Made by a program: the position numbers and the translations under genes. From the NCBI GenBank assembly GCA_017941735.1, contig JAGAVW010000002.1:1-64000 (forward strand): a stretch of DNA of 64,000 nucleotides. Reading direction: 5' to 3'. Below are positions 10,858-64,000 of this stretch, one piece after another. The notes under the pieces are model-generated. The model had not been told where the DNA came from. It made no database searches and worked only from the letters and a program-made list of their open reading frames with translations. The number at the start of each line of letters is the position of its first letter. The stretch's first letter is position 1. Source of the DNA: Solobacterium sp. Its GTDB lineage: Bacteria; Bacillota_I; Bacilli_A; Erysipelotrichales; Erysipelotrichaceae.

Positions 10858-10915
10858 ACAAATCACAAATGTGTCTTTTCTTTTTGAATAGAAGTGCTAC
10901 AATGAAAACGATAAA

Positions 10916-11021: not shown

Positions 11022-11046
11022 GACAAGCTTTATATTGTTTTACCCG

Positions 11047-11074: not shown

Positions 11075-11093
11075 GAGGCAAGGAGAAAAACAT

Positions 11094-38001: not shown

Positions 38002-38011
38002 AATTACCTCG

Positions 38012-38024
38012 GTTGTAAGACAAC
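38012..38024. promoter_or_regulatory. GntR operator O1
   Basis: GTTGTAAGACAAC is a perfect 5-bp-arm palindrome of the TTGTnnnACAA type bound by FadR-subfamily GntR proteins. It lies about ten bases upstream of the gntR ATG and should mediate autoregulation. Confidence 0.8.
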
Positions 38025-38066
38025 TTACACATATATTTTGCCATTTATGCCAAAAAAAAGCAACTA

Positions 38067-38095
38067 TTGACAAATATATGGGCTTAATATAGGAT
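38067..38095 (+). promoter_or_regulatory. Promoter of the ulaG-like operon
   Basis: TTGACA (38067-38072), a 17-base spacer and TAGGAT (38090-38095). The predicted +1 near 38102 falls inside operator O2. Confidence 0.85.
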
Positions 38096-38096
38096 G

Positions 38097-38113
38097 TAGT
38101 TGTCAGACAACTA
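38097..38113. promoter_or_regulatory. GntR operator O2 at the operon start site
   Basis: TAGTTGTCAGACAACTA is a perfect palindrome with 7-bp arms and a CAG centre, sharing the GTTGTnnnACAAC core with O1. It begins just after the -10 box, a position suited to repression. Confidence 0.85.
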
Positions 38114-38132
38114 AAACGAAAGGAGAGTTGCT

Positions 38133-39218: not shown

Positions 39219-39258
39219 TTCAGCGCACATTGTAAATGCTTAACGAGCAGGAGGGAAC

Positions 39259-39963
39259 ATGGAACTTACAGAAATGAAACAACGTGTATATGATACTAAC
39301 ATCGAACTTGTAAAGCGAGGGCTAGTCATTTATACATGGGGCAACGTGAGTATGATTGACCGTGAAAAAGGCATTGTCGTCATTAAACCACGTGGGGTGG
39401 AATATGACGATCTTGGTCCAGAAAATATGTCCGTGACCGATTTAGAGGGAAACCAATTAGAAGGGGATTTACTTCCTTCCGTCGATTTAGATATTCACCT
39501 TGCGATTTATAAACAATTTAAAGAGGTGGGTGGGATTGCGCATACCCACTCCACCTACGCAACATCTTGGGCGCAAGCGCGTTGTGATTTACCTGTTTAT
39601 GGAACAACCCATGGGGATCATTTCTTTGGGAATATCCCATGCACAAGACAACTGAACGAAGAAGAGACAGCTTCCGGCTATGAAAAACATACCGGTGATG
39701 TGATTGTTGAAACATTTCATGAGCGAGGCATTGACCCTATGCAGATGGGGGCAGTACTTGTAGCAGGACATGGTCCATTTACTTGGGGAAAGACACCCGA
39801 AGAAGCAGTTGAGCATAGTGTAATTCTTGAAGAGCTTTCCCATATGGCCTTATTGACTAGAGAAATCAACATGGAAGCACCACAGTTAGAAAAACATATT
39901 CTTGAAAAGCATTATTTGCGTAAGTATGGAAAAGATGCCTACTTCTACCAGGAGAAAAAATGA
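39259..39963 (+). CDS. L-ribulose-5-phosphate 4-epimerase (AraD/UlaF family)
   Basis: The 234-residue class II aldolase-fold enzyme has TWGNVSMIDRE, PRGVEYDDL, SVDLDIHLAIY, the zinc His pair in IAHTHSTYATSWAQ (about residues 94-96) and AGHGPFTWGK. These match AraD/UlaF/SgbE, which interconvert L-ribulose 5-phosphate and D-xylulose 5-phosphate. In the ula pathway this is the last step. AGGAGGG precedes ATG 39259. An aldolase role cannot be excluded from sequence. It overlaps the next gene by four bases. Confidence 0.9.
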   Translation: MELTEMKQRVYDTNIELVKRGLVIYTWGNVSMIDREKGIVVIKPRGVEYDDLGPENMSVTDLEGNQLEGDLLPSVDLDIHLAIYKQFKEVGGIAHTHSTYATSWAQARCDLPVYGTTHGDHFFGNIPCTRQLNEEETASGYEKHTGDVIVETFHERGIDPMQMGAVLVAGHGPFTWGKTPEEAVEHSVILEELSHMALLTREINMEAPQLEKHILEKHYLRKYGKDAYFYQEKK

Positions 39964-40778
39964 AGACCGGTGTATCATTATCCGCATTTCCTGCGCGTAA
40001 AGGGATGCCAGTCTTATTCTCCGAAGCAACCAAAGAGAATCTTGAAACTATTAAACGTTTAGGCTTTGATGGGGTTGACTTATTTGTGCGTGACCCCGAA
40101 TCAAAAGAAACAAGAGATGCGTTACTTGGCTTAGAAAAGTATGGTCTAGGTATTGGCGTAATTATGCCAGCAGCTTTAGCCAGAGAAGGATTATTTCTAG
40201 GCTCCAGCATGCATGTGATACGCGAAGAAGCTTTACGCAAGATTAAAGATATCATCAAGCTTGCGGGAACGTGTGGGGCTATGGTTTCGCTTGGGCTTGT
40301 GCGTGGCTCGAAAGAGGAAGAAGAAGCGCTCGCATCATTTTATACACGCTTTACGGATTCTTGTTTAGAATTATTAAAAGAGGCACAACCCATTGGGGTG
40401 AATCTTGTGATTGAACCAATCAATCGCTATGAGATTAATACCATCAACTCTTTACAAGAATGTATTACCTATATTAAAGACAACAACTTACCAATACATA
40501 TCATGGCAGACACATTCCATATGAATATCGAAGATATTGATTTAACGCAAACACTAAGAGAATCTCTACTCTATACCAAACACATTCATTTTGTTGATTC
40601 GAACCGTTTAGCACCTTCCATGGGACATATGGATTTAGAATCCATGTATCAAATGTTGGTAGAAGAGAATTATCAAGGTTATTTATGTATGGAAGTCATG
40701 CCATTTCCAGATCCTATTACAAACGCAACAATCGGTTCAAACTTTTTTCAAGCGATGAAAGAGAAATATGGAGGGTAA
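39960..40778 (+). CDS. TIM-barrel sugar epimerase/isomerase (UlaE/tagatose-3-epimerase-like)
   Basis: The 272-residue protein belongs to the AP endonuclease 2-like TIM-barrel family. Metal-ligand positions are visible: LVIEPINRYEIN (Glu), IMADTFHMN (Asp, His), IHFVDSNR (His) and CMEVMPFPDP (Glu). It resembles ketose 3-epimerases and L-xylulose-5-phosphate 3-epimerase (UlaE). By position after UlaG- and UlaF-like genes it probably epimerises a pentulose or hexulose (phosphate). The ATGA overlap with the previous gene shows coupling. Confidence 0.82.
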   Translation: MKTGVSLSAFPARKGMPVLFSEATKENLETIKRLGFDGVDLFVRDPESKETRDALLGLEKYGLGIGVIMPAALAREGLFLGSSMHVIREEALRKIKDIIKLAGTCGAMVSLGLVRGSKEEEEALASFYTRFTDSCLELLKEAQPIGVNLVIEPINRYEINTINSLQECITYIKDNNLPIHIMADTFHMNIEDIDLTQTLRESLLYTKHIHFVDSNRLAPSMGHMDLESMYQMLVEENYQGYLCMEVMPFPDPITNATIGSNFFQAMKEKYGG

Positions 40779-40779
40779 C

Positions 40780-42261
40780 ATGAAACAATTTGAATTTGAA
40801 TATGGGCAAGGGACTTTAAGCGCAAATTTACCAGACAGTACCGATGTGTTTATTCCGGGTGAAACCGTAAAAGATCCCGCATACATTAAAGAAAAAGATT
40901 TAGAAAAAGCATACAAAGAAAGTTTGGCACATCCAATTGGTATGAAGCCAATCGCTAAGCTTGTGAAAAAGAACAGTAAGGTTGTTTTTGTTGTTCCAGA
41001 TCGTGTTAAAGGAGGAGAACAAGAAACAAGCCATCGCAAGTTGAGTGTTAAGTACATTTTAGAAGAACTCTACCAAGCAGGTGTCCAAAAGAAAAACATT
41101 CTCTTTATCATATCGAATGGCTTACATCCAAAAAGTAAAGAATCCGATATCAAAGCTATTTTTGGAGAAGCGTTGTTTAATGAATTTTATCCTTCTGGCC
41201 AAATGATTTCCCATGATAGTGAAGATGAAGAACACATGGTAGATCTTGGTTATACCAAACATGGAGATCCTGTATTCATGAATAAATATGTTTATGAAGC
41301 AGACTTACCAATCTTAATTGGCCATGTACAAGGAAACCCTTATGGTGGTTATTCAGGTGGTTATAAACATAGCGCAACTGGGATTACCAATTGGCGTTGT
41401 ATCGCAAGTCACCATGTACCAAGTGTCATGCATCGTGCCGATTTTACACCCGTTAATAATGGCAGTTTGATGCGTGATAAGTTTGATGAAATAAGTATGC
41501 ATATGGAAAAGAAAATGGGACATCCATTCTTCTGTTGCGATGCGGTGCTAGATACGCAATCTCGTCAAATTGCGATTTTCTCAGGCTATGCGAAAAAGAT
41601 GATGCCTGAAAGTTGGAAGGTTGCAGATCAAAGAACCTATGTCCATTGGGCAAAGAAAAAATATGATGTTTTGGTTTTCGGTATGCCCCAAAAATTCCAT
41701 TATGGCGATGGCATGGGTACCAATCCGATTATGATGATGCAGGCTTTATCTGCACAGGTATTGCGTTATAAGCGTATTATGAGTGAACGTTGTGTTATCA
41801 TTTGTGCTTCGACTTGTAATGGGTATTTCCATGATGAATTATGGCCATACTTAAGAGAACAATATGAATTATTCCAAAAAGACCATATGGATACGCTTCC
41901 CGATATGAATCGGTATGGCGAATACTTTTCGACAAATGAAGAATACATTCGTAAATATCGCTACTGCAATGCCTTCCATCCATTCCATGGTTTCTCGATG
42001 ATGAGTTGTGGCCACATTGCGGAAATGAATACAAGTGCGATTTATATCGTTGGGGCACAAGAACCAGGTTATGCGCGTGGCATGGGCTTAAAAACACGTG
42101 CGACCTTTGAAGAAGCATTAGAAGATGCGAAAAAGAAATTTGTTGGCGAGAATCCAAATATTCTTGCTTTACCAATGACCTTTAAGAAAGCAGCTGTCCA
42201 TCTTTGTATGGAAAATCCAGATGAAGATGAAATGGATGCGTATGGGCATAGAAGGAAATAA
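40780..42261 (+). CDS. LarA-like nickel-pincer racemase/epimerase
   Basis: The 493-residue protein matches the lactate racemase (LarA/DUF2088) family, whose members use a nickel-pincer nucleotide to move a hydride at a 2-hydroxy acid. Seen are VPDRVKGG (73-79), ISNGLHPKS (H116, aligned to LarA His108), GGYSGGYKHS (K196, aligned to the cofactor-binding Lys184) and ASHH (211-212). The position of LarA His174 appears to be Asn186. In this operon an epimerase of a sugar acid is more likely than lactate racemase. GGAGGG precedes ATG 40780. The cofactor genes larB, larC and larE are not in the window. Confidence 0.82.
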   Translation: MKQFEFEYGQGTLSANLPDSTDVFIPGETVKDPAYIKEKDLEKAYKESLAHPIGMKPIAKLVKKNSKVVFVVPDRVKGGEQETSHRKLSVKYILEELYQAGVQKKNILFIISNGLHPKSKESDIKAIFGEALFNEFYPSGQMISHDSEDEEHMVDLGYTKHGDPVFMNKYVYEADLPILIGHVQGNPYGGYSGGYKHSATGITNWRCIASHHVPSVMHRADFTPVNNGSLMRDKFDEISMHMEKKMGHPFFCCDAVLDTQSRQIAIFSGYAKKMMPESWKVADQRTYVHWAKKKYDVLVFGMPQKFHYGDGMGTNPIMMMQALSAQVLRYKRIMSERCVIICASTCNGYFHDELWPYLREQYELFQKDHMDTLPDMNRYGEYFSTNEEYIRKYRYCNAFHPFHGFSMMSCGHIAEMNTSAIYIVGAQEPGYARGMGLKTRATFEEALEDAKKKFVGENPNILALPMTFKKAAVHLCMENPDEDEMDAYGHRRK

Positions 42262-45213: not shown

Positions 45214-46587
45214 TTATTTACGGTTGCTTAAAGAAACATATTCTTGGGTTTCACCAATATATTTATAAGCAGGACGAATGATGCGATTTGCGAATTCGAC
45301 TTCTTCCATGCGGTGTGCACACCATCCAGCAACACGGGAAATCGCAAAGATAGGAGTATATAACTCTTCTGAAATCCCTAAGATTCGGTAGACAAGACCA
45401 GAGAATAAATCAACATTTGCACAAACGTTCTTTGTTTTCTTAGTCTCTTCCGCAAATACAATTGGTGCATTCTTTTCAATGTTACAGAGTAAGGTATATT
45501 CTTTTTCAAATCCTTTTTCGTAAGCTAAATCTTTTAATTGTTCTTTTAACATGAGTGCACGGGGGTCAGATTTGGTATAAACCGCGTGTCCAACTCCATA
45601 GATGAGGCCACTTTTGTCATAAGCTTCTTTGCGTAAGATTTTGCGCAATGCATCTTTTACTTCTCCATCATTCTCTGGATGCTTAATTTGTCCTAGTAAA
45701 TAATCCATTTGATGCATTACTTTAATATTTGCGCCACCATGTTTTGGACCTTTTAAAGCACCAATGGCAGATGCGATACTCGAATAGGTATCTGATCCAG
45801 AAGAAGAGACAACGCGGTCTACAAAGGTACTATTGTTTCCACCACCATGGTCAGCGTGCGCAATGAGACATAAGTCTAAGAGTTTTGCTTCTTCATGCGT
45901 GAATGCTTGATCCGGTCGATAGGTAGAAAGTATATGCTCGGCAATCGAATACCCTTTTTTTGGATAATGGAAATATAACGAGCCATGATTATAGGCATGT
46001 TTTTTTGCTTGGTAGGCATAAACCATCATCGTAGGAAGTTGGGCAATGAGGTTGATGGATTGTTGGATGATGTTTTCTAAACTTGTATCTTCCGCGTCTT
46101 CATCATAGCTATACATGGCTAAAACAGAACGTGCCATTTTGTTCATGACATTTGGAGAAGGGGCACTGAGAATCATCGTTTCTACAAAGCCATCTGGTAA
46201 TTGTCGATGCTCTTCTAACACATTACAAAATTTCTGTAGGTTTTCTTCGGATGGTAACGTACCAAATAATAAAAGCCATACAAGTTCTTCATATAGAAAG
46301 CGATCTTTTGTGATAGCTTCATTCACAATGTCTAAAAAATCAATGCCACGATAGATGAGTTTCCCATCAATCGGTAACACATTTCCTTCTAAATCTTTTT
46401 TATAACCAATGACATCACAAATATTGGTGAGACCCGCAAGAACACCGGTTCCATCGGGGTTACGTAAACCACGCTTAACGCCTAGTTGTTCACTGGTTTC
46501 AGGGTCAATAAAATTATGGTTGCGATATTCATCACATAGGAGTGTAATTTCGTCTTTTGTTAAACTTGGGACATCTGGATAAATCAT
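45214..46587 (-). CDS. gltA: Citrate synthase
   Basis: The 457-residue enzyme condenses oxaloacetate and acetyl-CoA. It has the IDGKLIYRGIDFLDI segment, the first catalytic His in CLIAHADHGGGNNSTF, the second in GPKHGGANIKVM, the GVGHAVYTKSDPRA loop with catalytic residues and FAISRVAGWCAHRMEE near the end. GAGGTG precedes the ATG. It is divergent from the isocitrate dehydrogenase and aconitase-like genes across a 110-base shared promoter region, forming an oxidative half-cycle that would make 2-oxoglutarate for glutamate. Confidence 0.96.
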   Translation of the reverse strand: MIYPDVPSLTKDEITLLCDEYRNHNFIDPETSEQLGVKRGLRNPDGTGVLAGLTNICDVIGYKKDLEGNVLPIDGKLIYRGIDFLDIVNEAITKDRFLYEELVWLLLFGTLPSEENLQKFCNVLEEHRQLPDGFVETMILSAPSPNVMNKMARSVLAMYSYDEDAEDTSLENIIQQSINLIAQLPTMMVYAYQAKKHAYNHGSLYFHYPKKGYSIAEHILSTYRPDQAFTHEEAKLLDLCLIAHADHGGGNNSTFVDRVVSSSGSDTYSSIASAIGALKGPKHGGANIKVMHQMDYLLGQIKHPENDGEVKDALRKILRKEAYDKSGLIYGVGHAVYTKSDPRALMLKEQLKDLAYEKGFEKEYTLLCNIEKNAPIVFAEETKKTKNVCANVDLFSGLVYRILGISEELYTPIFAISRVAGWCAHRMEEVEFANRIIRPAYKYIGETQEYVSLSNRK

Positions 46588-46697
46588 AAAACACCTCTAG
46601 TATTGGAATTATAGTAATTGTTTTTTTCAATGGATGCAATGAAAATAGAGAAAAACACATAACTTCGTGTACAATATTAATCAATAAGGTAGTAGTT

Positions 46698-47705
46698 ATG
46701 AAAGTTGTATTAATTCCAGGAGATGGAATCGGAAAAGAGATTTCCACAAGTTTATTAAAAGTAGCAGAAGCTTTGAAGTGCCCAATGGAATGGCAAGTAT
46801 TTGAAGCGGGCGCCGAGCATTATGAAGAGAGTGGTGTGTTGTATGAAGAAGGCTTATTAGAGGCGATTCGTCATACCGGAATCGCTATTAAAGGCCCAAC
46901 CGCTACACCAATTGGAACAGGCTTTCGTTCCCTCAATGTCCAATTGCGCAAAGAATTCGATGCCTATGCGAATATTCGTCCAATTCAATCCATCCCTGGA
47001 ATTGAAACACCATATAAGAATGTTAATTTAGTGATTTTCCGTGAGAATACGGAAGATTTATATAGTGGTGTAGAAGAAGTCATCTCCGAAGAGGAAGTGC
47101 ACGCACTTAAGATCATTACACGAAGAGCGAGTGAACGTATTATACGTGCGGCTTTTGAATATGCGCAAAAAGAAGGGCGTAAAAAAGTCACGGCTGTACA
47201 TAAAGCAAATATCATCAAACAAGCAGATGGGTTATTTTTATCTGTGTTTGATGAAGTCGCAAAGGAATATCCAAGGATTAAAACGGAAAAGATTATTGTG
47301 GATGCGGCTTGTATGAAACTCGTGATGAATCCAAATCAATTTGATGTTCTTGTGACCATGAATCTCTATGGGGATATCCTTAGTGATTTGTGTGCAGGGC
47401 TTGTGGGTGGACTTGGTTTTGCGCCAAGTGTGAATCGGGGCGAAGAAGTATCCATCTATGAAGCGGTCCATGGTTCTGCCCCTGATATCGCAGGGAAAAA
47501 CTTGGCCAATCCGACCGCATTATTAATGGCATTTGAAATGTTGTTGAAAGATTATGGTTATTCGAAAGAAGCAAAGATTCTTCATAATTCTTTACGCGAA
47601 GTGATTGAAGAAGGATTATCTTTAACCCCAGATCAAGGTGGACAAGCAACTTGTACAGAATATACAAACGCAATCATACAGAGGATTCAAGATGCGCTTC
47701 ATTAA
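46698..47705 (+). CDS. icd: Isocitrate dehydrogenase (NAD-type, isocitrate/isopropylmalate family)
   Basis: The 335-residue enzyme is of the short homoisocitrate/NAD-IDH clade. It has VVLIPGDGIGKEI, the substrate segment TGFRSLNVQLRKEFDAYANIRP (split around S-x-N-x-x-L-R), RENTEDLYSGVE, VHKANIIK, the metal-binding NLYGDILSDL and the coenzyme motif EAVHGSAPDIAGKNLANPTA. The coenzyme motif suggests NAD, by family rule. AAGGTAG precedes ATG 46698 and TACAAT lies upstream. Its 3' end overlaps the hydratase gene by 14 bases. Confidence 0.92.
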   Translation: MKVVLIPGDGIGKEISTSLLKVAEALKCPMEWQVFEAGAEHYEESGVLYEEGLLEAIRHTGIAIKGPTATPIGTGFRSLNVQLRKEFDAYANIRPIQSIPGIETPYKNVNLVIFRENTEDLYSGVEEVISEEEVHALKIITRRASERIIRAAFEYAQKEGRKKVTAVHKANIIKQADGLFLSVFDEVAKEYPRIKTEKIIVDAACMKLVMNPNQFDVLVTMNLYGDILSDLCAGLVGGLGFAPSVNRGEEVSIYEAVHGSAPDIAGKNLANPTALLMAFEMLLKDYGYSKEAKILHNSLREVIEEGLSLTPDQGGQATCTEYTNAIIQRIQDALH

Positions 47706-49902
47706 TCAACCGGTACAATATCAAAATGGAAGGGTTGCCCTTGCACCAGACAAATCAACTGGTAAAGATAAAACATTAACCAGTCGTATTTTAAATGCGC
47801 ACCAACAGGATCAAAAGGATTCTCTTTTCCATCTTAAATTTGATTCCTTGACTTCACACGATATTACGTATGTAGGGATTATTCAAAGCGCACGTGCTTC
47901 CGGATTAGAAGAGTTTCCTATGCCTTATGTGTTAACGAATTGTCATAATACGCTATGTGCAGTAGGTGGGACAATTAATGAAGACGATCATCAATTTGCC
48001 TTATCTGCTGCCCATAAGTATGGGGGCATTTATGTGCCCGCAAATATGGCTGTCATACATAGCTATAATCGTGAGATGATGACAGGTTGTGGGCGCATGA
48101 TACTTGGCTCCGATTCGCATACACGCTATGGTGCTTTAGGAACGATGGGAATTGGAGAAGGTGGTGGCGAATTAGTGAAACAACTACTTGGTCGCACCTA
48201 CGATATTGCCTATCCTAAAGTGATTTTGGTGTATGTAACAGGAAGCGTTAAACCTGGAGTTGGTCCACAAGATGTCGCTTTAACGCTGATTAAAGAAACC
48301 TATCCAAAGGGACTTGTGAAGAACGCGGTCTTAGAGTTTGTGGGGCCTGGTATTCATAATTTATCGCAAGATTTTCGTAATGGTATCGATGTCATGACTA
48401 CAGAAACCGCATGCTTATCTTCGATTTGGGAAACAGATGAAATCACAAAACAATATTATGAAAACCATAAACGAAGCGATGCCTATTGCCCACTCATTGT
48501 CGAAGAGGGTGCGGTATATGATGCATGCATTGAACTTGATTTAAGTGAAATTGAATGCATGATGGCGATGCCCATGCATCCCATGTATGCTTTATCCATT
48601 CATGAATTCTTAGCTCGTCCAGAAGAAATTCTAAAAGAAACACAAGCACGTATTGAAGAAAGTTTAAAACGTCCTTTAGAACAAGATCTCACAAAGAAAT
48701 TAGTAGATGGGAACTTTCAAGTTGAGCAAGGAATTATCGCAGGTTGTTCGGGTGGCATTTATGAGAATATCATGGCTGCTAGAGATATCTTGAAGGGTGG
48801 TTCCATTGGGAATGGGCGTTTCCGTATGAGCGTTTATCCAGATTCCATGCCGATTCATAAAGCACTTGTAGAAAATGGATGTGTGAGTGATCTGTTAGAA
48901 AGTGGTGTTATTTTCCGAGAAGCTTTTTGTGGGCCATGTTTTGGGGCTGGTGATACGCCTGCTAATGGGGAATTTTCCATTCGCCATACAACGCGTAATT
49001 TTCCAAATCGCGAAGGATCGAAACCAAATGAAGGCCAACAAGCTTTTGTGGCTCTCATGGATGCGCGCTCTATTGCAGCAACCGCAAAAAATGGTGGCAT
49101 CTTAACTGCCGCTAGTGATTTGATGCAAAAAGACAATCTGATTCAACCTTATGTTTTTGATGCTTCCATTTATGAAAAACGTGTATATGATGGCTATCAA
49201 AAAGCGGATAAGGAATATGAATTACTACAAGGGCCAAACATTAAAGATTGGCCATCTATCCCTTCACTCAAAGATACGATGCTTGTGAAAGTTGTGAGTT
49301 ATTTGGATGATCCAGTGACGACAACAGATGAATTGATTCCTTCCGGTGAAACATCAAGCTATCGCTCCAATCCACTACGCCTAGCAGAATTTACATTGTC
49401 TAGACGTGATCCAAACTATGTAACATACGCAAAACAAGTGCAGGCATTAACAAAAGACGATAAAGAAATACAAAGTCTTCAATCTTTCTTAGCATCACAA
49501 GGTCAAAGGATTGATTGGGAAGATATCGCTATTGTTTCTGCCATCTATGCAAATCAGCCAGGAGATGGTTCCGCACGTGAGCAAGCAGCTTCTTGTCAAC
49601 GTGTACTTGGGGCAGGGGTGAATTTTGCGTTAAGCTATGCGACTAAGCGCTATCGTTCCAATTGTATAAACTGGGGCATTTTGCCCTTTATCGTAGAAAA
49701 TAAAAACAATATCCAACCGATGGATTGGATTTATATCAAGAATAGCAAACAGGCAATAAAAGAAGATGCCCCCTTTGAAGCTTATGTCGTAAAAGAAAAA
49801 CTCGAGCCAATTTCATTATCTGTTGGTCAGTTAAGCAAAGAAGAGCGAGAAGTATTACTTGCGGGTTGTCTGATTAATTATTATCGAAATGGAGAAATGT
49901 AG
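47692..49902 (+). CDS. Aconitase-superfamily hydratase (YbhJ-like)
   Basis: The 736-residue protein has aconitase-type domains: an N-terminal SDSHTRYGALGTMGIGEGGGEL (split around SDSHTRYGALG), Fe-S cluster cysteines in REAFCGPCFGAGDTPANGE and TACLSS, RHTTRNFPNREG and a C-terminal swivel domain with IVSAIYANQPGDGSAREQA. It is shorter than AcnA (about 890) and nearest in size to the uncharacterised YbhJ group. Sitting between citrate synthase and IDH genes it is the obvious candidate for citrate to isocitrate. GAGG precedes ATG 47692. Confidence 0.85.
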   Translation: MRFINQPVQYQNGRVALAPDKSTGKDKTLTSRILNAHQQDQKDSLFHLKFDSLTSHDITYVGIIQSARASGLEEFPMPYVLTNCHNTLCAVGGTINEDDHQFALSAAHKYGGIYVPANMAVIHSYNREMMTGCGRMILGSDSHTRYGALGTMGIGEGGGELVKQLLGRTYDIAYPKVILVYVTGSVKPGVGPQDVALTLIKETYPKGLVKNAVLEFVGPGIHNLSQDFRNGIDVMTTETACLSSIWETDEITKQYYENHKRSDAYCPLIVEEGAVYDACIELDLSEIECMMAMPMHPMYALSIHEFLARPEEILKETQARIEESLKRPLEQDLTKKLVDGNFQVEQGIIAGCSGGIYENIMAARDILKGGSIGNGRFRMSVYPDSMPIHKALVENGCVSDLLESGVIFREAFCGPCFGAGDTPANGEFSIRHTTRNFPNREGSKPNEGQQAFVALMDARSIAATAKNGGILTAASDLMQKDNLIQPYVFDASIYEKRVYDGYQKADKEYELLQGPNIKDWPSIPSLKDTMLVKVVSYLDDPVTTTDELIPSGETSSYRSNPLRLAEFTLSRRDPNYVTYAKQVQALTKDDKEIQSLQSFLASQGQRIDWEDIAIVSAIYANQPGDGSAREQAASCQRVLGAGVNFALSYATKRYRSNCINWGILPFIVENKNNIQPMDWIYIKNSKQAIKEDAPFEAYVVKEKLEPISLSVGQLSKEEREVLLAGCLINYYRNGEM

Positions 49903-55719: not shown

Positions 55720-56709
55720 ATGGATAAAAAAATTAAAATAAATTATGTAGGTTTTTGGAAAACATATAATTATGAAAATTTAACTATTCATCAGATTTTA
55801 AAAAAGCATTATGACCTCGAAATCAGCGACAATCCAGATTATCTTATTTGTTCGTGTTTTGACAATCGGCATTACAATTATCCAAATACCGTAAAGATTT
55901 TTTATACGGGTGAGAATATTTCTACCGACTTTAACACCTATGATTATGGTCTTGATTTTGATGATTATGAATTCTTCGATCGCCATTATCGCATGCCTGT
56001 TTATATTATTAATTCAGAACAAATAGAGATTATGCACAAGATGTTGGAGAAACACTTACATGCGGAAGAATCCTTTAAAGAAAAAGATGCTTTCTGTAGT
56101 TTTGTATATAGCCATGATGTACAATTTCGTAATGAATTCTTTGATGAATTATCGAAATACAAACAGGTCGATGCCGGTGGCAAGTCAAGAAATAATGTTC
56201 AAATAGGACCAGGGCAACAGGACAAAGTCATATTTGAAAAGAGACATAAGTTTGCGATTGCGTTTGAAAACATGTCGCGTCGAGGCTATATTACCGAAAA
56301 ATTAGTCAATTCCTTTGCGACTGGGACCATACCGATTTATTGGGGCGCGGTGAATGTGGATAAATACTTTAATCCAAAAGCAATGATTCACATCAAGTCA
56401 CCAGACGATATTCCACAAGCCATTGCGCGTATTAAAGAGCTCGATCAGAATGATGACTTGTATATGGAAATGTTAAAACAGCCGGCGTGTTTGCCAGAAC
56501 AACAAAAGTATCATGAAGAACTCGTACCAAATTTAGAAAAGTTCTTATGTCATATTTTTGATCAGCCTTTAAATAAGGCGGGAAGACGGAATTATAATCA
56601 AAATTATGTTGATATTTTAAAAAAACCCCCTGTCCCAGTTGAGGTGAAACAGGGGGAAACGCGCGGTTTATTTACTCGAATCAAAGTTTTTCTCAAATCG
56701 TTCCATTAA
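55720..56709 (+). CDS. GT10 family fucosyltransferase
   Basis: The 329-residue protein has the two GT10 signatures: FYTGENISTDF at 61-71 and the alpha1,3-fucosyl motif HKFAIAFENM with GYITEKLVNSF and GTIPIYWGA at 176-210. GT10 enzymes move fucose from GDP-fucose to GlcNAc or glucose, giving Lewis-type epitopes. It is a lone gene without GDP-fucose or other glycan genes nearby. The last 42 bases overlap the convergent HAD gene, and the last 30 residues are encoded across that gene's terminator, so this tail is probably recent. Predicted leaderless. Confidence 0.88.
   Translation: MDKKIKINYVGFWKTYNYENLTIHQILKKHYDLEISDNPDYLICSCFDNRHYNYPNTVKIFYTGENISTDFNTYDYGLDFDDYEFFDRHYRMPVYIINSEQIEIMHKMLEKHLHAEESFKEKDAFCSFVYSHDVQFRNEFFDELSKYKQVDAGGKSRNNVQIGPGQQDKVIFEKRHKFAIAFENMSRRGYITEKLVNSFATGTIPIYWGAVNVDKYFNPKAMIHIKSPDDIPQAIARIKELDQNDDLYMEMLKQPACLPEQQKYHEELVPNLEKFLCHIFDQPLNKAGRRNYNQNYVDILKKPPVPVEVKQGETRGLFTRIKVFLKSFH
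56619..56656 (-). terminator. Terminator of the HAD gene, inside the fucosyltransferase gene
   Basis: On the minus strand CCCCCTGT (56656-56649) pairs with ACAGGGGG (56633-56626) around a 15-base loop, followed by seven T residues. It begins 12 bases after the HAD stop and lies within the plus-strand coding sequence. Confidence 0.9.
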
Positions 56710-57519
56710 TTCTTGTTGGCATTCGTTGTATCTTCCTTCTAGGAAGGCATCGAAATATTGATTGATGAATGCTTGCCAACTTTCACCTTCATGGCGTGTG
56801 AGGATTGGATAATACCATACGCCATTTTCATTTGATGCATCCACATCTGGATATGCATCCCCAATCATGAGGATATCTTCTTTGGAGTAGCCTTTTGTTA
56901 GCATTCGTGCTAAACACTCGCCTTTTGTGCCAACTTCTTGAGAAGTGATGACATCCACATATTTGATTAAGTCATGCGCTTTCCATTCTTCTACAATTGC
57001 GGCCATATTGGAACTACTGATAATCGCAATATCCGCTTTACCTAAAGCATATTCAAGTGCTTCTTTTCCATTTGGATAAGGAGGTTTATCCGTTGGGGTT
57101 AAGCTTGCGATACGTTTATTTAAATCTAAGGACCAAGCATGAATTTTTTCTAATAAAGGGGTTGGATTAACTTTCAATTCTTCTTCTAATGCAGCATTGG
57201 AAAGACTTCCTTTATCGACCCAAGCACTGAATTTGTCGAATTGTTCTTGATCCACATCAAGATAGGTTCCATTGATACGCTTAAACATTTCGCGTAGTGC
57301 TAAAAAACGGTTGATGCCTCTACTTTTTTCATAAAGGTTAATGGAATCCCAGATTTCATGAATCTCTTTTGCATGGTCTTGTAGGCCCCAAGTTTCAATA
57401 AAGCTTTGCCCATGACATTTGTCGTGTTTTACATTCATCGCATCAATCATGGTTCCATCGGAATCGATGCAAATGACTTTGTCGTGCTTTCTAACAAAAT
57501 TATCTAACGAGTAGTCCAT
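56668..57519 (-). CDS. HAD family hydrolase
   Basis: The 283-residue HAD protein has motif I CIDSDGTMIDAM (residues about 17-28), motif II in AIISSSNMAAI, the motif III Lys in VGTKGECLARML and motif IV ILMIGDAYPDVDASNENG. A large helical cap lies between motifs I and II. It is a phosphatase of the phosphoglycolate/phosphonatase-like subgroup, with unknown substrate. GGAGAATATC precedes the ATG. It is divergent from uxaC across a 160-base region. Confidence 0.87.
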   Translation of the reverse strand: MDYSLDNFVRKHDKVICIDSDGTMIDAMNVKHDKCHGQSFIETWGLQDHAKEIHEIWDSINLYEKSRGINRFLALREMFKRINGTYLDVDQEQFDKFSAWVDKGSLSNAALEEELKVNPTPLLEKIHAWSLDLNKRIASLTPTDKPPYPNGKEALEYALGKADIAIISSSNMAAIVEEWKAHDLIKYVDVITSQEVGTKGECLARMLTKGYSKEDILMIGDAYPDVDASNENGVWYYPILTRHEGESWQAFINQYFDAFLEGRYNECQQELMERFEKNFDSSK

Positions 57520-57681: not shown

Positions 57682-59076
57682 ATGAAAAAGTTTATGGATC
57701 AAGATTTTTTGTTGCAAACAGAAACCGCAAAACATTTGTACCATGATTATGCAAAAGTGATGCCAATCATTGATTATCACTGTCACTTGAGCCCACAAGA
57801 GATTTATGAAGATAAGAAGTTTGATAATATTACCCAAGTGTGGCTTTATGGCGATCACTACAAATGGCGTATCATGCGTGCCCATGGTGTAGAAGAAAAA
57901 TACATCACAGGAGATGCGAGTGATCGGGAAAAATTCCAGAAATGGGCAGAGACGCTAGGAATGGCCATCGGCAATCCACTCTATCACTGGAGCCATTTAG
58001 AGTTGCGCAATTATTTTGGATATGAAGGAACGTTGAATGGAGAAAGTGCAGAAGAGGTTTGGAATCTTTGTAATGAAAAACTCAAAGAGTTATCTGCACG
58101 TAAAATGATTGAAGTATCCAATGTAACCCATATTTGTACAACGGATGATCCAGCAGATGATTTGCATTTCCATGAATTAATGGCTAAAGATGAAACGCTG
58201 AAAACAAAAGTCATGCCTGCATGGCGACCAGATAAGGCGATGAATCTACAAACAAAAGATTATTTAGATTATTTGAAACGTCTAGAAGATGCTTCTAGCA
58301 AGACGATTGATTCCTATGATGCTTTACTTGCGGTATTAAGTGATCGCTTAGATTACTTTGCAGATAGAGGTTGCACAGTTTCAGATCATGGCCTTGATTA
58401 TGTCATGTATGAGCCGGCAACGGCAGAAGAAGTAAGTGATATCTTCGCAAAACGTTTAGCAGGGAAAGATTTAGATCTAACGGAAATCCGCAAGTTTAAA
58501 ACGGCGTTCCTTCTTGAAATGGGAAAGGAATATGCCAAACGCAATTGGGTGATGCAGTTACATTATGGTGTCATCCGTGACAACAATACAAAGGTCTTTG
58601 AAAAACTAGGACCGGATGCAGGAGTAGATTCGATTGGAAGTTCTGCGCCTACCAATGAGCTTGCGTATTTCTTAAATGCACTTGAAAACGAGGATGCATT
58701 ACCAAAGACAATTATTTATTCTTTAAATCCAATTGATAATACGGCAATTGAAACCATCATGGCTTGTTTCCAAAAAGGACCAACGGTTTCGAAAATGCAA
58801 CATGGTTCTGCATGGTGGTTTAATGATCATAAAGTAGGAATGACAGAGCAACTCACAAGTTTGGCAAATGAAGGCATGTTAGCTGACTTTGTGGGGATGT
58901 TAACCGATTCAAGATCGTTCTTGTCTTATGCGCGTCATGAATATTTCCGTCGTGTATTATGCAATGTCATAGGCACATGGGTAGAAAATGGCGAATATCC
59001 AAATGATGAAAAAACCCTTGAAACAATAATCAAGGGAATATCTTACAATAATGCCAAAGCGTATTTTGAATATTAA
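57682..59076 (+). CDS. uxaC: Glucuronate isomerase
   Basis: The 464-residue UxaC enzyme of the amidohydrolase fold isomerises D-glucuronate to fructuronate (and galacturonate to tagaturonate). It has IIDYHCHLSPQEIYEDK, TTDDPADDLHFHE, MPAWRPDKAMNL, WVMQLHYGVIRDNN and the FVGMLTDSRSFLSYARHEYFRR end (split around TDSRSFLSY). GGAGG precedes ATG 57682 and an extended -10 TGCTATGCT lies at 57629-57637. No uxuA, uxuB, kdgK or kdgA is in the window, so the rest of the uronate pathway is elsewhere. It is adjacent to, and convergent with, araC. Confidence 0.96.
   Translation: MKKFMDQDFLLQTETAKHLYHDYAKVMPIIDYHCHLSPQEIYEDKKFDNITQVWLYGDHYKWRIMRAHGVEEKYITGDASDREKFQKWAETLGMAIGNPLYHWSHLELRNYFGYEGTLNGESAEEVWNLCNEKLKELSARKMIEVSNVTHICTTDDPADDLHFHELMAKDETLKTKVMPAWRPDKAMNLQTKDYLDYLKRLEDASSKTIDSYDALLAVLSDRLDYFADRGCTVSDHGLDYVMYEPATAEEVSDIFAKRLAGKDLDLTEIRKFKTAFLLEMGKEYAKRNWVMQLHYGVIRDNNTKVFEKLGPDAGVDSIGSSAPTNELAYFLNALENEDALPKTIIYSLNPIDNTAIETIMACFQKGPTVSKMQHGSAWWFNDHKVGMTEQLTSLANEGMLADFVGMLTDSRSFLSYARHEYFRRVLCNVIGTWVENGEYPNDEKTLETIIKGISYNNAKAYFEY
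59009..59036 (-). terminator. Terminator of the AraC gene, inside uxaC
   Basis: On the minus strand CCCTTGA (59036-59030) pairs with TCAAGGG (59021-59015) and is followed by six T residues. It lies 41 bases past the araC stop in uxaC coding sequence. Confidence 0.8.
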
Positions 59077-59868
59077 TTATTCACGATTCTTTCCACTTGG
59101 AGATTCATTGAATATTTTATAGTAATCACGATAAAACGATGAGTAGTGATTGAAACCTAAACGCAAGGAAACTTCCGTTGCGGGGATTCCTTCATTAATC
59201 ATCGTTTTTGCAAGCATGATTTTTTGTGTACGTACATAAGACATAATAGGTGTATCAAATTGTTCATGGAAGATTTTATAGACGGAAGATTTGGAAAGAT
59301 GCAATGCTTTTGCAATATCATCAACCGATTGAATCTCTGTTAAATGATTTGAAATATAATCAATAATTGGCATCAATTCTTCGTTTACCAAATCGGCTTG
59401 TTGAATTAATTCGTCAGAAGAGATGAGGTAAGCTAAGATGATATTCAACGAAGAAATGAAGGTCGATAAAATCATATCGTTTCGAACCGAGGAATAATGA
59501 GAGTCTAAATGACTCAATTCCGCACTTAATGGGGTATTCTGAATAAAATAGACATCATCGAGTTTTGACAAGAAGCGGCGGGTATGTGGGTGAATATCAA
59601 AGGGATCAAAACGTAAGACCATTCTTTCGTAAGGGGTTTGAGAGTTAAGAATAATATTATGATGCTCACCAGGTTGTACGACAATCAAATCTCCAGATTT
59701 CAGAGAATACTGTGTATTACGAACACGGAAAGAAGCATCTCCCTTGATGAAATATAAAAGTTCATAGAGCACATGGTAGTGTTCCTTAAATCGCTCTTCA
59801 TTCAAATCAGGTTTTTGCGTTAAAGTATGCTTAAACGTATAATTCCCAGACCGAACATCAAATTCCAT
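59077..59868 (-). CDS. AraC family transcriptional regulator
   Basis: The 263-residue regulator has an N-terminal cupin sensor (about 1-140; YELLYFIKGDASFRV, SGDLIVVQPGEHH) and a C-terminal double helix-turn-helix (about 165-263; SVDDIAKALHLSKSSVYKIF and PATEVSLRLGFNHYSSFYRDY). It probably senses a sugar. Its promoter and that of the divergent sulfatase share the region 59869-59981, which holds a 22-bp-spaced pair of AATGCAATAT repeats; a like pair precedes the ABC importer. Leaderless start. Its stop touches the uxaC stop. Confidence 0.93.
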   Translation of the reverse strand: MEFDVRSGNYTFKHTLTQKPDLNEERFKEHYHVLYELLYFIKGDASFRVRNTQYSLKSGDLIVVQPGEHHNIILNSQTPYERMVLRFDPFDIHPHTRRFLSKLDDVYFIQNTPLSAELSHLDSHYSSVRNDMILSTFISSLNIILAYLISSDELIQQADLVNEELMPIIDYISNHLTEIQSVDDIAKALHLSKSSVYKIFHEQFDTPIMSYVRTQKIMLAKTMINEGIPATEVSLRLGFNHYSSFYRDYYKIFNESPSGKNRE

Positions 59869-59874: not shown

Positions 59875-59903
59875 ATTCTAAAAGAAATAATGCAATATAG
59901 CAA
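59875..59903 (-). promoter_or_regulatory. Leaderless promoter of araC, overlapping its operator
   Basis: On the minus strand TTGCTA (59903-59898), 17 bases, TAGAAT (59880-59875), then exactly six bases to the ATG. The first AATGCAATAT repeat lies in the spacer and -35, so the regulator can occlude its own promoter. Confidence 0.8.
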
Positions 59904-59920
59904 TGGAAGAAATGCAATAT
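59889..59920. promoter_or_regulatory. AraC operator pair, sulfatase/araC region
   Basis: Two direct copies of AATGCAATAT (59889-59898 and 59911-59920) are spaced 22 bp start to start, about two helical turns, as expected for an AraC dimer. The second copy starts 41 bp before the sulfatase -10 (TATAAT, 59952-59957), which lacks a good -35, so activation is likely. Confidence 0.75.
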
Positions 59921-59981
59921 TTCATCGCAATCTTGTTTTATCTTGCTATACTATAATCAATAAGAAATGAGAGAAATACCT

Positions 59982-61625
59982 ATGTCAAATGAGAAAAAAC
60001 CAAACATTATCATATTCAATCCAGATGAAATGCGTGTCGATGCGATGCGGCATATGGGAAATCCTGCCGCTTTGACACCTTTTTTGGATTCGTTTGCACA
60101 AACCGATGCGGTTTCTTTCCGAAATGCAGTTTGTCAAAACCCCGTTTGTGTTCCATCGCGTTGTAGTTTCTTTACGGGATTATATCCACATGTGAATGGC
60201 CATCGCACAATGTCTTATCTTTTAAGACCTGGCGAAAATACCTTGTTTAATGAATTAAAAAAGGCGGGTTATTACGTTTGGATGAATGCACGTAATGACT
60301 TATATGCAGGACAGTATGAAAACTGGTTTGAAGCAAGCGCAGATGAAATTGAGTATGGGGAGAATTATAAACAAACCGAAATCCCAAAAGGACAAAGAGA
60401 AGAAGGCGATAAAGATTATTATTCGCACTATGAAGGGAAAATTGAAGTACAGGGAGAAGAAGCTTATTACAGCAAAGACGATGCCGATGTCGATGCATGT
60501 ATCGAACGCATTAAGAATAAAAAAACGGATCAACCTTTCTGTATGTTTTTAGGATTGTATTATCCGCATGTCCCATACAAAGTGGAAGAACCCTATTATT
60601 CGATGATTGATCGCACAAAACTATTACCACGGATCCTTCCAGAAGCTTGTAGCAACAAACCACGTATTGAAGAAATGATTCGTACCAATCAAAATATGCA
60701 AGCCTATACAGAAGAAGATTGGAATGAATTACGCGCAGTCTACCTAGCGATGTGCACAAAGGTCGATACGCAATTTAAAAAAGTGTGTGATGCATTAAAG
60801 GAGGCAGGCGAATATGACAATACCGCAATTTTCTTCTTTAGTGATCATGGCGACTTTACAGGGGATTATGGTCTTAGCGAAAAAGCGCAAAATTGTTTTG
60901 AAGATTGTCTAGTGAAAGTGCCATTCTTAGTCAAGCCACCAAAAGGATATGAAATCCAACCTGGTATCTCCGATTCTTTGGTAGAACTCGTTGATTTCTA
61001 TGCGACCGCGATGGAATTTGCGAATGTAGAACCAGACCACACGCATTTTGGGAAGAGTGTGGTGCCGATTCTAAAAGATCCAACCTTTGAGCAACGTACA
61101 TTTGTGTATTGTGAAGGGGGAAGAATGCCTGGGGAAGAACATTGTGATGAGTTTCATGCGAATGGGAAAAACGGGACTCCAAAGAATCATCTGTATTGGC
61201 CACGCCATTTTGCCCAAACAGATGATGATGCACATACAAAAGGAACGATGATTCGAAATCATAAATATAAATATATTTTGCGAAATAATGGCAAAGATGA
61301 ATTTTATGATTTAGAAAAAGATCATGGAGAAACAACGAACTGTATTGCTTCAAAAGAATACGAGAATACCATTCGCGACATGCAAATAGAATTATTGCGT
61401 TGGTACCAAGCGACATGTGATATTGTCCCTAAAGACTATGACAAGCGTTTTAATAAAAAGATGTTAAAAAGTATGATGTATAACGCTTGTGAAAACGAAG
61501 AAGAAAAAGCGTTTGTAGACCAATGTATAGAAGAAGGAGATACAATGGGTGCCATTTTTGGAAAGCTACGCGCTTATCGAAATAATGCAAGTAAAGAAGG
61601 AACGAGTACATCTAAAACTCTTTGA
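59982..61625 (+). CDS. Cytoplasmic Cys-type sulfatase
   Basis: The 547-residue alkaline-phosphatase-superfamily sulfatase has the full maturation motif C56-V-P-S-R60 then T65-G66, needed for conversion of Cys to formylglycine, an N-terminal metal Asp region (FNPDEMRVD) and FFFSDHGDFTGDYGL. There is no signal peptide, so it must act on a sulfated compound inside the cell. ATG 59982 has GAGAG upstream; ATG 59967 is an alternative close to the -10. Its 3' end overlaps by 52 bases the convergent maturase gene that would activate it. Confidence 0.92.
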   Translation: MSNEKKPNIIIFNPDEMRVDAMRHMGNPAALTPFLDSFAQTDAVSFRNAVCQNPVCVPSRCSFFTGLYPHVNGHRTMSYLLRPGENTLFNELKKAGYYVWMNARNDLYAGQYENWFEASADEIEYGENYKQTEIPKGQREEGDKDYYSHYEGKIEVQGEEAYYSKDDADVDACIERIKNKKTDQPFCMFLGLYYPHVPYKVEEPYYSMIDRTKLLPRILPEACSNKPRIEEMIRTNQNMQAYTEEDWNELRAVYLAMCTKVDTQFKKVCDALKEAGEYDNTAIFFFSDHGDFTGDYGLSEKAQNCFEDCLVKVPFLVKPPKGYEIQPGISDSLVELVDFYATAMEFANVEPDHTHFGKSVVPILKDPTFEQRTFVYCEGGRMPGEEHCDEFHANGKNGTPKNHLYWPRHFAQTDDDAHTKGTMIRNHKYKYILRNNGKDEFYDLEKDHGETTNCIASKEYENTIRDMQIELLRWYQATCDIVPKDYDKRFNKKMLKSMMYNACENEEEKAFVDQCIEEGDTMGAIFGKLRAYRNNASKEGTSTSKTL

Positions 61626-62656
61626 TGTGCGCAATAATCATTTTCTAAATAACAAACATTTTGTCGCCGACACCCACCATGACAGATTTTTTGATAAGGA
61701 CAGGTTTGGCAGATTTCCTTTTGACAGGAACCTTCTTGGATAAACTTTTTGGCGACATTTGTCTTTGCGAGTTGTGCAAATGTGTGTGCAGAAATATTTC
61801 CTAGGCAATAAGAATCCGTGCAATAAAAATCACAAGGATAAACATCCCCGTTTGCTTCGACGATATACTGAATTTGACAATTGCCAAGCATCCCACATTG
61901 ATAAGGCGCATAACCCTGTAACATGCCCGCAATCTGGTCAAAGAGATTGATACTCATTTGGCCACCTTTCTTAAGGTCAGATAGAAACGCTTGAAAGAAT
62001 GAAAGGTAGAAGGATTCATACAAACGCGGGGTCAATGACATCGCGTTTTCCTTTTCATTAAGAAAGGGCAGACAAGGAATGAGTTGAATAAATTGAAAAT
62101 GATGTGCTTGATAAAATGCAAATAACGCTTTTGGATGTTCTGCCAAAGATTTGGTTAAAACAGTAAGGATATTATAGGGCACATCAAATTTTTCTAGTAA
62201 AGCAATCGCAGCCAAAACGGAATTAAAGACCCCATTCCCATTTTGATCGATGCGATACTGATTTGTTATAGTTTCATAACCATCTAAACTCATGCCAATT
62301 AAAAAATGATGCTTTTTAAAGAAAGTACACCAAGCTTCATCAATTTGGATTCCATTTGTTTGTAAGGAGTAGTTCGCTTGAATGGTTGGATATTGTGCTA
62401 ATAAATCAACGAAGGTTTGAAAATAGGATAAACCAGCTGATGTGGGTTCGCCACCTTGAAAGCTAATATTTACCGTACCTTCTTCTTCTAGCGCTTCCGC
62501 AATGCGCTCAATAAGAGTCACAACGACTTCCTGTTTCATGATTCCGTGATTGGTGCTTCTTCTTTGTTGGCTAATATCGTGATAAAAACAATAGGTACAA
62601 TTTAAGTTACAAGAAGAAGATGCGGGTTTTACTAAGATTGAAATTGTTTTTGACAT
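61574..62656 (-). CDS. Anaerobic sulfatase-maturating radical SAM enzyme
   Basis: The 360-residue enzyme converts the sulfatase Cys to formylglycine without oxygen. The radical SAM site is C16-x3-C20-x2-C23 (CNLNCTYC), followed by FQGGEPTSAGL. The C-terminal SPASM domain has Cys clusters for two auxiliary Fe-S centres (YQCGMLGNC, YPCDFYC, CQTCPYQKICHGGC). ATG 62656 is chosen because an extended -10 sits exactly six bases upstream; the longer ORF start at 62752 lies before that promoter. Its partner sulfatase is the convergent neighbour. Confidence 0.95.
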   Translation of the reverse strand: MSKTISILVKPASSSCNLNCTYCFYHDISQQRRSTNHGIMKQEVVVTLIERIAEALEEEGTVNISFQGGEPTSAGLSYFQTFVDLLAQYPTIQANYSLQTNGIQIDEAWCTFFKKHHFLIGMSLDGYETITNQYRIDQNGNGVFNSVLAAIALLEKFDVPYNILTVLTKSLAEHPKALFAFYQAHHFQFIQLIPCLPFLNEKENAMSLTPRLYESFYLSFFQAFLSDLKKGGQMSINLFDQIAGMLQGYAPYQCGMLGNCQIQYIVEANGDVYPCDFYCTDSYCLGNISAHTFAQLAKTNVAKKFIQEGSCQKEICQTCPYQKICHGGCRRQNVCYLENDYCAHQRVLDVLVPSLLALFR

Positions 62657-62662
62657 AAATCG

Positions 62663-62671
62663 ATTATAACA
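62663..62671 (-). promoter_or_regulatory. Leaderless extended -10 promoter of the maturase gene
   Basis: On the minus strand TGTTATAAT, a perfect extended -10, ends exactly six bases before the ATG at 62656. No Shine-Dalgarno. Confidence 0.8.
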
Positions 62672-62772
62672 AAAAGATGCTACTTTGCTTTCTAAGAGAA
62701 AAATATGGAATAAAATAATCGATTTAAACAAAATAGCATAAATGTCTAACAAAAAAGAAAGTAGGGAAGATT

Positions 62773-63666
62773 ATGACACAACCAAGAAAGTATTTTGAAA
62801 TACCAGTAAAGCGATTGGACATCCATGTGCATCTAGGTATAGAAGGCAACAAAAGAGGATGCTTTACCGCCGAAGAAAGAATGCAGTTTGACAAAATGAT
62901 GGGAATTGATCGCGCGGTGATTCTTCCTTATCCAACTGGAAATGATGAACCAGATGAAGGAATGCTCGATACCGAACAATCCATAAAAATTGTCCAACAA
63001 TATCCAGAACATTATTCTTTTTTCTGTAATGTAAATCCAAAAGAAGAGAAAAGTGAAGAAAAAATCAAAGCGTATAAAGACTTAGGGGCCTTAGGGGTAG
63101 GAGAGTTTGGCATAAAGATTCCATTTGATGATGAACGCATGGATAATATCTTTCAAACTTGCGCAAAATTGGAATTACCATTTCTTTTCCATATTAGTCC
63201 GGGTGGAAAGAGCTTATATGGAATTATTGACTATCCAGGTTTGCCCCTGCTAGAAAAAGTGTTAAGCAAATATCCAGATACGATATTCATTGGCCATTCC
63301 CAACCTTTTTGGTATGAAATGGGCGTTTACGATACCAATCTTCCAGTTGAAGCATTAAACGGGTTCCCTTTTACAAAAATCAAAGAAGAAGGACGTGTCA
63401 TTGAATTAATGCGGAAATATCCAAATTTATATGCAGATTTGTCCGCAAATAGCGGAAGCAATGCAATCTTGCGGGATACAGATTACGGCATTCATTTTTT
63501 AAAGGAGTTCCAAGATCGGCTATTTTTCGGGACGGATCTATTGAATACAGAAATGATCTACCCAATCGGACAAATGCTAGACTATTACCTACTAAGTGGA
63601 AAAATCGATGAATCGTGTTATAGCAAGATTTGTCGAAGAAATGCGGAACAAATTTTAAAACTATAA
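62773..63666 (+). CDS. Amidohydrolase family 2 metal-dependent hydrolase
   Basis: The 297-residue TIM-barrel protein of the amidohydrolase_2 (ACMSD-like) family has HxH in LDIHVHLG (residues about 16-23), a His in LFHISPGG, a second in FIGHSQPF and the metal Asp in FFGTDLLN. Members include sugar-lactone hydrolases and decarboxylases. Beside a sulfatase, a glucuronate isomerase and a sugar importer, a lactonase or sugar-acid hydrolase is plausible but not shown. AGGGAAG precedes ATG 62773. The AraC-type sites follow its stop. Confidence 0.8.
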   Translation: MTQPRKYFEIPVKRLDIHVHLGIEGNKRGCFTAEERMQFDKMMGIDRAVILPYPTGNDEPDEGMLDTEQSIKIVQQYPEHYSFFCNVNPKEEKSEEKIKAYKDLGALGVGEFGIKIPFDDERMDNIFQTCAKLELPFLFHISPGGKSLYGIIDYPGLPLLEKVLSKYPDTIFIGHSQPFWYEMGVYDTNLPVEALNGFPFTKIKEEGRVIELMRKYPNLYADLSANSGSNAILRDTDYGIHFLKEFQDRLFFGTDLLNTEMIYPIGQMLDYYLLSGKIDESCYSKICRRNAEQILKL

Positions 63667-63676
63667 TCGCGGAAAA

Positions 63677-63708
63677 AATGCAATATAAATTCAAAAGCAT
63701 TGCAATAG
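63677..63708. promoter_or_regulatory. AraC operator pair upstream of the ABC importer
   Basis: AATGCAATAT (63677-63686) and ATTGCAATAG (63699-63708) are again 22 bp apart start to start. The second copy begins 30 bp before the -10, one helical turn nearer than at the sulfatase promoter. Confidence 0.75.
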
Positions 63709-63725: not shown

Positions 63726-63734
63726 TGTTATATT
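63726..63734 (+). promoter_or_regulatory. Extended -10 promoter of the ABC importer
   Basis: TGTTATATT with no good -35; the -35 position is occupied by the second AraC repeat, which fits activation. Confidence 0.65.
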
Positions 63735-63740: not shown

Positions 63741-63756
63741 AAGAAAACGCTTACAT
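63741..63756 (+). promoter_or_regulatory. Candidate cre (CcpA) site
   Basis: AAGAAAACGCTTACAT matches the consensus WTGNNARCGNWWWCAW at all but the second position. It begins at the predicted +1 of the importer promoter, suited to roadblock by CcpA. Confidence 0.6.
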
Positions 63757-63782: not shown

Positions 63783-64000
63783 ATGGCAGATCAAAATCCG
63801 ATTTTGGAAGTGAAGCACATGGATAAGAACTTCGGTGTGACAATCGCTTTGAATGATGTGTCTTTTACTCTTGAAAGAGGAAATGTTTACGGCTTGATTG
63901 GTGAAAACGGAAGTGGCAAGTCCACCGTCAGCTCCATCATTGCCGGAATGCAGCAACCAACCAAAGGGGAAATGGTTTACAAAGGCGAACCATGGAAACC
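63783..64000 (+). CDS. Sugar ABC importer ATP-binding protein, N-terminal part
   Basis: The 72 visible residues are the start of an ABC ATPase with ILEVKHMDKNFGVTIALNDVS and Walker A GENGSGKST (about residues 41-49). The wording fits the double-ATPase sugar class (RbsA/MglA/XylG), which imports monosaccharides with a permease and a lipoprotein. GAAAGGAGAG precedes ATG 63783. The promoter carries the AraC repeat pair and a cre box, so it probably imports the compound handled by the sulfatase locus. The rest is outside the window. Confidence 0.85.
   Translation, partial: MADQNPILEVKHMDKNFGVTIALNDVSFTLERGNVYGLIGENGSGKSTVSSIIAGMQQPTKGEMVYKGEPWK

Follow-up and report, generated by a model that had tools for sequence, protein, structure and literature searches.

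In Escherichia coli, AraC uses two proximal sites, araI1 and araI2, and the one nearer to the promoter recruits RNA polymerase (PMC4760080). AggR, an activator of the AraC/XylS family, is reported to act from sites 21-22 bp before the -10 hexamer with an optimum of 22 bp (PMC6392122), and predicted AraC-family rhamnose regulators (RhaR) of Bacillales, Bacteroides and Enterococcus are associated with direct repeats of 21-bp periodicity (PMC3870299). Here we describe a comparable arrangement in Solobacterium sp. (GCA_017941735.1), in the first 64,000 nucleotides of contig JAGAVW010000002.1 (hereafter the window), where two tandem pairs of TGCAATA repeats adjoin a gene for an AraC-type regulator and the operon of an ABC importer. 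Literature searches turned up nothing relevant on TGCAATA in connection with AraC, nor on an AraC regulon in this genus.

The regulon is new and its type well known. It resembles that of E. coli araBAD in having a regulator with a cupin and a double helix-turn-helix (HTH) domain, two proximal sites and a predicted role in the control of sugar catabolism. The motif, however, is a different one, a cre of the CcpA type replaces CRP, and one pair lies on the promoter of araC itself. Nothing pointed to a distal site for looping; the two pairs are 3.8 kb apart, and in the nearest relative (G041) approximately 80 bp. As with AggR and class II activators in general, the element ends 21-22 bp before the -10 and overlaps the -35, but AggR uses a single element and serves virulence, whereas here a conserved 22-bp tandem pair would serve metabolism. 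The likeness to RhaR lies in the comparative-genomics reconstruction and in the direct repeats ahead of sugar catabolic operons; motif and sugar pathway are different, and orthology with the present AraC is not known. The sensor domain has fold matches to that of E. coli AraC and to the lactose-sensing AraC-family protein BgaR (6nx3, 6nwo), the latter a weak one from a low-confidence model. We propose, with a probability of roughly 0.85, that the pairs are the sites of the adjacent AraC, which would activate the importer in class II fashion, limit its own synthesis and govern a glucuronide regulon.

The pairs, their uniqueness, conservation and geometry can be read directly from the sequences. 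The four half-sites are as follows.

59889-59898, forward strand: pair 1, distal half-site AATGCAATAT, kept in G041, overlapping the araC extended -10 on the opposite strand
59911-59920, forward strand: pair 1, half-site closer to the sulfatase gene, AATGCAATAT, kept in G041
63677-63686, forward strand: pair 2, distal half-site AATGCAATAT
63699-63708, forward strand: pair 2, proximal half-site ATTGCAATAG, overlapping the importer -35 region

Both pairs are spaced by 22 bp and have the same orientation, pair 1 pointing to a sulfatase gene and pair 2 to the importer, and thus the positions and the shared spacing given by the initial annotation proved correct. By itself, the heptamer TGCAATA shows no enrichment over the window (11 copies observed, 17.9 expected), and its count was dropped as evidence. 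In 300 dinucleotide shuffles of the window, 22-bp pairs arose at a mean of 0.003 per shuffle, and two pairs sharing one spacing in none. The scan that had been suggested for 22-bp-spaced repeats covered the whole source genome (G000; a 1.95-Mb assembly, 94% complete) and found the perfect pattern TGCAATA-N15-TGCAATA in two copies, which are pairs 1 and 2; repeats that were frequent and randomly spaced would have spoken against a regulon. The single one-mismatch copy is within a DUF262-like gene. Among 18 inspected of the 26 further near-matches with up to two mismatches none resembled a regulon promoter; L020 turned out to be pair 1 itself in reverse orientation, and a hexamer as good as 4/6 stood at offset 27 or 28 in only two (TATTAG and AATATT), both without the key T-A---T. 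When a matrix was trained without the source genome, pairs 1 and 2 were the top two sites (25.4 and 23.2 bits) in the 71.9-kb locus contig (C44), followed by their own reverse strands (17.2 and 15.7 bits) and the first unrelated site (15.4 bits).

Comparison with 271 other genomes of the family (272 with the source genome) revealed an AraC orthologue in five, all of the same genus, with identities of 81% (G041), 53% (G015), 51% (G043 and G036) and 48% (G032). The matching relatives are Solobacterium sp. metagenome-assembled genomes from sheep gut and roe deer gut and the isolate Erysipelotrichaceae bacterium NK3D112. A perfect TGCAAT-N16-TGCAAT, the pattern used across relatives, adjoins araC in all five. 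The gene divergent from araC belongs to the orthologous importer in G041, G015, G043 and G036, and in G032 it encodes a GH3 enzyme followed by HAD and GH2 genes. A second pair is found in G015, G043 and G036 ahead of an operon opening with putative uxuA and fructuronate reductase genes; uxuA is so read from 47-49% identity to PF03786 members of G032, and the reductase is named from the start of its sequence alone. No pairs were found at the uxuA genes of G032. G041 has two pairs between araC and the importer.

The alignment comprises 11 pairs, or 22 half-sites, from the six araC genomes, and a pair in G035 is the twelfth, from a seventh species. Since TGCAAT was the search string, its invariance is partly by construction; likewise the 22-bp spacing was fixed in the search across the 12 pairs, and the sites landed at the expected promoters. 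Outside the search string the flanks are conserved as well, with A at -6 in 20 and T at -1 in 18 of the 22 half-sites. Independent support thus comes from the pairs standing at the expected places in all six araC genomes and from the conserved flanks. In 9 of the 11 aligned pairs, 27-28 bp separate the first base of the proximal TGCAAT from that of the best -10, which leaves a gap of 21-22 bp behind the TGCAAT; among the relatives, this gap is seen at the promoters of the importer, of uxuA and of GH3. By base shuffling, a promoter would show such canonical placement by chance with a probability of 3-8%, and there are about four independent promoter lineages. The two exceptions are pair 1 and the araC-proximal pair of G041. 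A search of the 272 genomes for the pair together with a -10 (TGCAAT-N16-TGCAAT-N21,22-TANNNT) returned 17 matches: nine already known from the six araC genomes, one in G035, and seven scattered, six of which are within open reading frames. The G035 match lies between an orthologous amidohydrolase (67%) and the orthologous importer (ATPase 91%) and is accompanied by the same cre; its -10 is canonical too, yet the site was selected by that criterion. The occurrence of the pairs together with the araC orthologue, and the retention of their sequence, spacing and position within the genus, strongly support the notion that they are operators of this AraC.

The half-sites, which approximate RNANNAWTGCAAT, are arranged in tandem two helical turns apart, so that both repeats present the same face of the helix and each could take up one subunit of a dimer. 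Around the start of the importer operon the following features were recognized.

63726..63734, forward strand: extended -10 TGTTATATT, the identical element being found at the same distance in G041
63742..63755, forward strand: cre-like CcpA site AGAAAACGCTTACA, one mismatch to TGWAANCGNTNWCA, just past the predicted start point
63784..64000, forward strand: 5' part of the gene for the importer ATPase, with the operon running on past the window (63762-71902 of the contig)

The proximal half-site of pair 2 overlaps a weak -35 (TAGACT, 4/6, 17-bp spacer), and the -10 begins 28 bp after the start of the proximal TGCAAT, leaving a gap of 22 bp. This is the geometry of class II activators, in which the proximal site lies on the -35 and 21-23 bp before the -10, and it strongly supports the predicted activation of the importer. 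Most likely, AraC that has bound a sugar through its cupin domain would recruit RNA polymerase here. CcpA on the cre may add catabolite repression. Six importer promoters (that of the source genome and five orthologous ones) have a cre that departs from the consensus at one or two positions and lies 41-47 bp beyond the first base of the proximal TGCAAT; because one-mismatch matches recur in the window (eight, counted strand-wise), its weight comes from conservation and position. The genome encodes a CcpA-like LacI protein, which scores below the curated ccpA cut-off. In the uxuA promoters of G015 (L091:3438-3465) and G036 (C20:179418-179445), the 16-bp spacer between the half-sites itself reads cre-like (TGTAAGCGCATACA and TGTAAACGCATACA, respectively), and competition between CcpA and AraC for a single site is therefore conceivable there.

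The operon encodes, in order, an ATPase, a permease, a lipoprotein binding protein, a second permease, a GH3 enzyme, an esterase and a GH2 enzyme. The best PDB match of the GH3 enzyme is a GH3 beta-glucoside phosphorylase and the GH2 enzyme is nearest to the beta-glucuronidase LacZ4. The binding protein has the fold of sugar-binding proteins in general, nearest to monosaccharide-type binders.

The regulator and its promoter lie on the opposite strand.

59077..59868, reverse strand: araC, AraC/XylS-family regulator of 263 aa (Pfam AraC_binding 2.3e-13, HTH_18 2.7e-15)
59894..59902, reverse strand: predicted araC extended -10 TGCTATATT (hexamer 59899-59894), from consensus, overlapping half-site 1; TGTTATATT in G041

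The N-terminal cupin (AraC_binding) domain places the protein in the sugar-responsive subgroup, and the C-terminal double HTH, with HTH_18 at residues 185-258 and a match to HTH_AraC, in the AraC family. Pair 1 had been described as overlapping the promoter of the regulator. Indeed, on the araC strand half-site 1 is spanned by TTGCTATATTGCATT, with TTGTTATATTGCATT in the corresponding position of G041. In both genomes, which align here without gaps, the pair is 22 bp before the araC ATG and covers the conserved TGNTATATT on the araC strand. Pair 1 is best read as the operator of araC itself, and AraC bound there would most likely cover the extended -10 and limit its own synthesis; given this overlap with a conserved element, the autorepression claimed earlier is plausible.

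From sequence we infer binding by AraC, its ligand, the direction of control and the substrate. The regulon would allow the cell to take up and degrade a small glycoside that contains glucuronate and is at least sometimes sulfated, and would comprise the importer, the GH3 enzyme, the esterase, the GH2 beta-glucuronidase-like enzyme and the sulfatase, joined in some relatives by uxuA and fructuronate reductase. Several points weigh against this reading. At the canonical distance, pair 1 is not followed by a good -10. G035 carries a pair without a detected araC orthologue, in an assembly that is approximately 70% complete and in some 340 contigs. The relatives represent one genus, and several of the pairs are consequently orthologous copies and not independent events. 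The importer -35 matches at four of six positions, so that some activator-independent transcription is possible. Finally, the predicted structure of AraC is of low confidence (mean predicted local distance difference test score 68).

The role of pair 1 at the sulfatase is where the alternatives diverge. Between the pairs of the source genome lies a 3.8-kb block with the following features.

59939..59957, forward strand: three competing sulfatase -10 candidates, from sequence
59982..61625, forward strand: S1-type sulfatase, 547 aa (Pfam Sulfatase 1e-37), start set from the alignment of homologues
61574..62662, reverse strand: radical SAM/SPASM protein resembling anaerobic sulfatase maturases (TIGR03942 9.6e-97)
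62773..63666, forward strand: TIM-barrel hydrolase of the Amidohydro_2 family (Pfam PF04909 2.1e-12), ending about 10 bp before pair 2

The sulfatase carries the Cys-type signature C-x-P-S-R as CVPSR, invariant in six homologues. The maturase-like gene is convergent with it and overlaps its 3' end; the product scores 324 bits against a TIGR03942 cut-off of 349 bits and has the radical SAM motif CNLNCTYC. The genome holds one S1-type sulfatase and one maturase-like gene, and the other three PF00884 matches probably resemble lipoteichoic acid synthases, to judge by the length of their frames (634-731 residues). Within the genus, G019, G028, G036, G049 and G068 (L105-L109) share an importer cassette paralogous to the present one, which includes one or two sulfatase-like genes and is accompanied neither by this araC nor by pairs.

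The three -10 candidates are TATCTT at 59939-59944, weak (4/6) and 26 bp from the start of the proximal TGCAAT (gap 20); TATACT at 59947-59952, with an extended TG (TGCTATACT), at 34 bp (gap 28); and TATAAT at 59952-59957, at 39 bp (gap 33). Good hexamers are thus available only at gaps of 28 and 33, and the class II geometry is absent. It is quite conceivable, if somewhat short of an even chance, that pair 1 serves araC autoregulation purely and that the sulfatase is expressed constitutively. The constant 22 bp to the araC ATG in two species and the overlap with TGNTATATT agree with this, and extended -10 promoters, such as TGCTATACT would be, can function without a -35 or an activator. On the other hand, the sulfatase of relatives sits in a pair-headed operon: it follows the uxuA and reductase genes in G015, where the gene is split in the assembly, and in G036, and in both it is likely a regulon member by this position behind a canonical pair. 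Degenerate half-sites also occur by the sulfatase promoter, such as CGCAAT 20 bp before TATAAT.

The initial annotation had taken pair 1 to activate the sulfatase, from promoters without a good -35 and at site-to-promoter distances differing by about one helical turn. In such a model, which is possible but doubtful, pair 1 would activate the sulfatase in a class I-like manner from one turn further upstream and repress araC, with pair 2 activating the importer. The lack of a good -35 holds for the sulfatase and only in part for the importer, with its partial TAGACT. The difference of one turn (39 against 28 bp, that is 11 bp) is obtained with TATAAT at 59952 only; with TGCTATACT the distance is 34 bp and the phase is off by about half a turn, and with TATCTT it is 26 bp, with a gap of 20. 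The pair-headed sulfatase operons of G015 and G036 would make regulon membership natural, but the orthologue of pair 1 is equally distant from araC in G041, where no sulfatase was found, and AggR responded at 21-23 bp (PMC6392122). With the same operator in a relative without the sulfatase and with the -10 spacing off, activation of the sulfatase from pair 1 is not established.

The two pairs of G041 are approximately 80 bp apart, and the block that separates them here may have entered this genome or dropped out of G041; in G035, too, the importer is preceded by the amidohydrolase. Because the block lies between operators that adjoin in the nearest relative, the sulfatase could have captured an autoregulatory operator, a single 29-bp site then repressing araC and activating the sulfatase, possibly with communication between the pairs over 3.8 kb. 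We consider this unlikely. G041 with its side-by-side operators offers a natural comparison for promoter rewiring by an intervening gene block.

It is very improbable that the pairs bind another regulator and lie close to araC incidentally. All six genomes with this araC have adjoining pairs, and none were found at six araC-less loci, where the sulfatase homologues are 60-67% identical and the importers mostly paralogous; moreover, tandem half-sites of 21-22 bp overlapping the -35 are typical of the AraC family. A chance or simple-sequence origin in AT-rich DNA, with which the unenriched heptamer would agree, is scarcely credible, being contradicted by the shuffles, the genome count, the conservation across species and the out-of-sample match in G035.

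With operators of the adjacent AraC as the preferred reading, a concrete operator motif and a regulon can be predicted from the locus for an AraC-type regulator of gut Erysipelotrichaceae that had not been characterised, and a sulfatase and its putative maturase become linked to a pathway of glucuronide uptake and catabolism. Two genes on the other side of araC touch the same pathway or locus.

57682..59076, forward strand: glucuronate isomerase UxaC (Pfam UxaC 2.3e-207), also last in the importer gene run of G041
56668..57519, reverse strand: HAD-type hydrolase, with an 81% orthologue adjoining araC in G041 and a 36% homologue at the G032 locus

No UxuA homologue was detected in the 94%-complete source assembly, and UxuA was therefore discarded as an additional target there. 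With UxaC present and UxuA not detected, the usual glucuronate route looks incomplete in this genome.

Elsewhere in the window, an FMN riboswitch (10910-11027, 97.6 bits) is directly upstream of the gene for an ECF-type, probably riboflavin, transporter (11073-11684). The remaining observations are named by eye. A stand-alone GH2 enzyme (29653-31380) is encoded between ftsH and hslO-like genes, apart from the carbohydrate locus. At 37297-42261 a GntR-type regulator is divergent from genes of the sugar-acid type, a run that comprises a UlaG-like lactonase, an aldolase/epimerase-like protein, a TIM-barrel isomerase and a LarA-like protein. A cluster of citrate synthase, isocitrate dehydrogenase and aconitase-like genes (45214-49902) forms a short oxidative branch of the tricarboxylic acid cycle.

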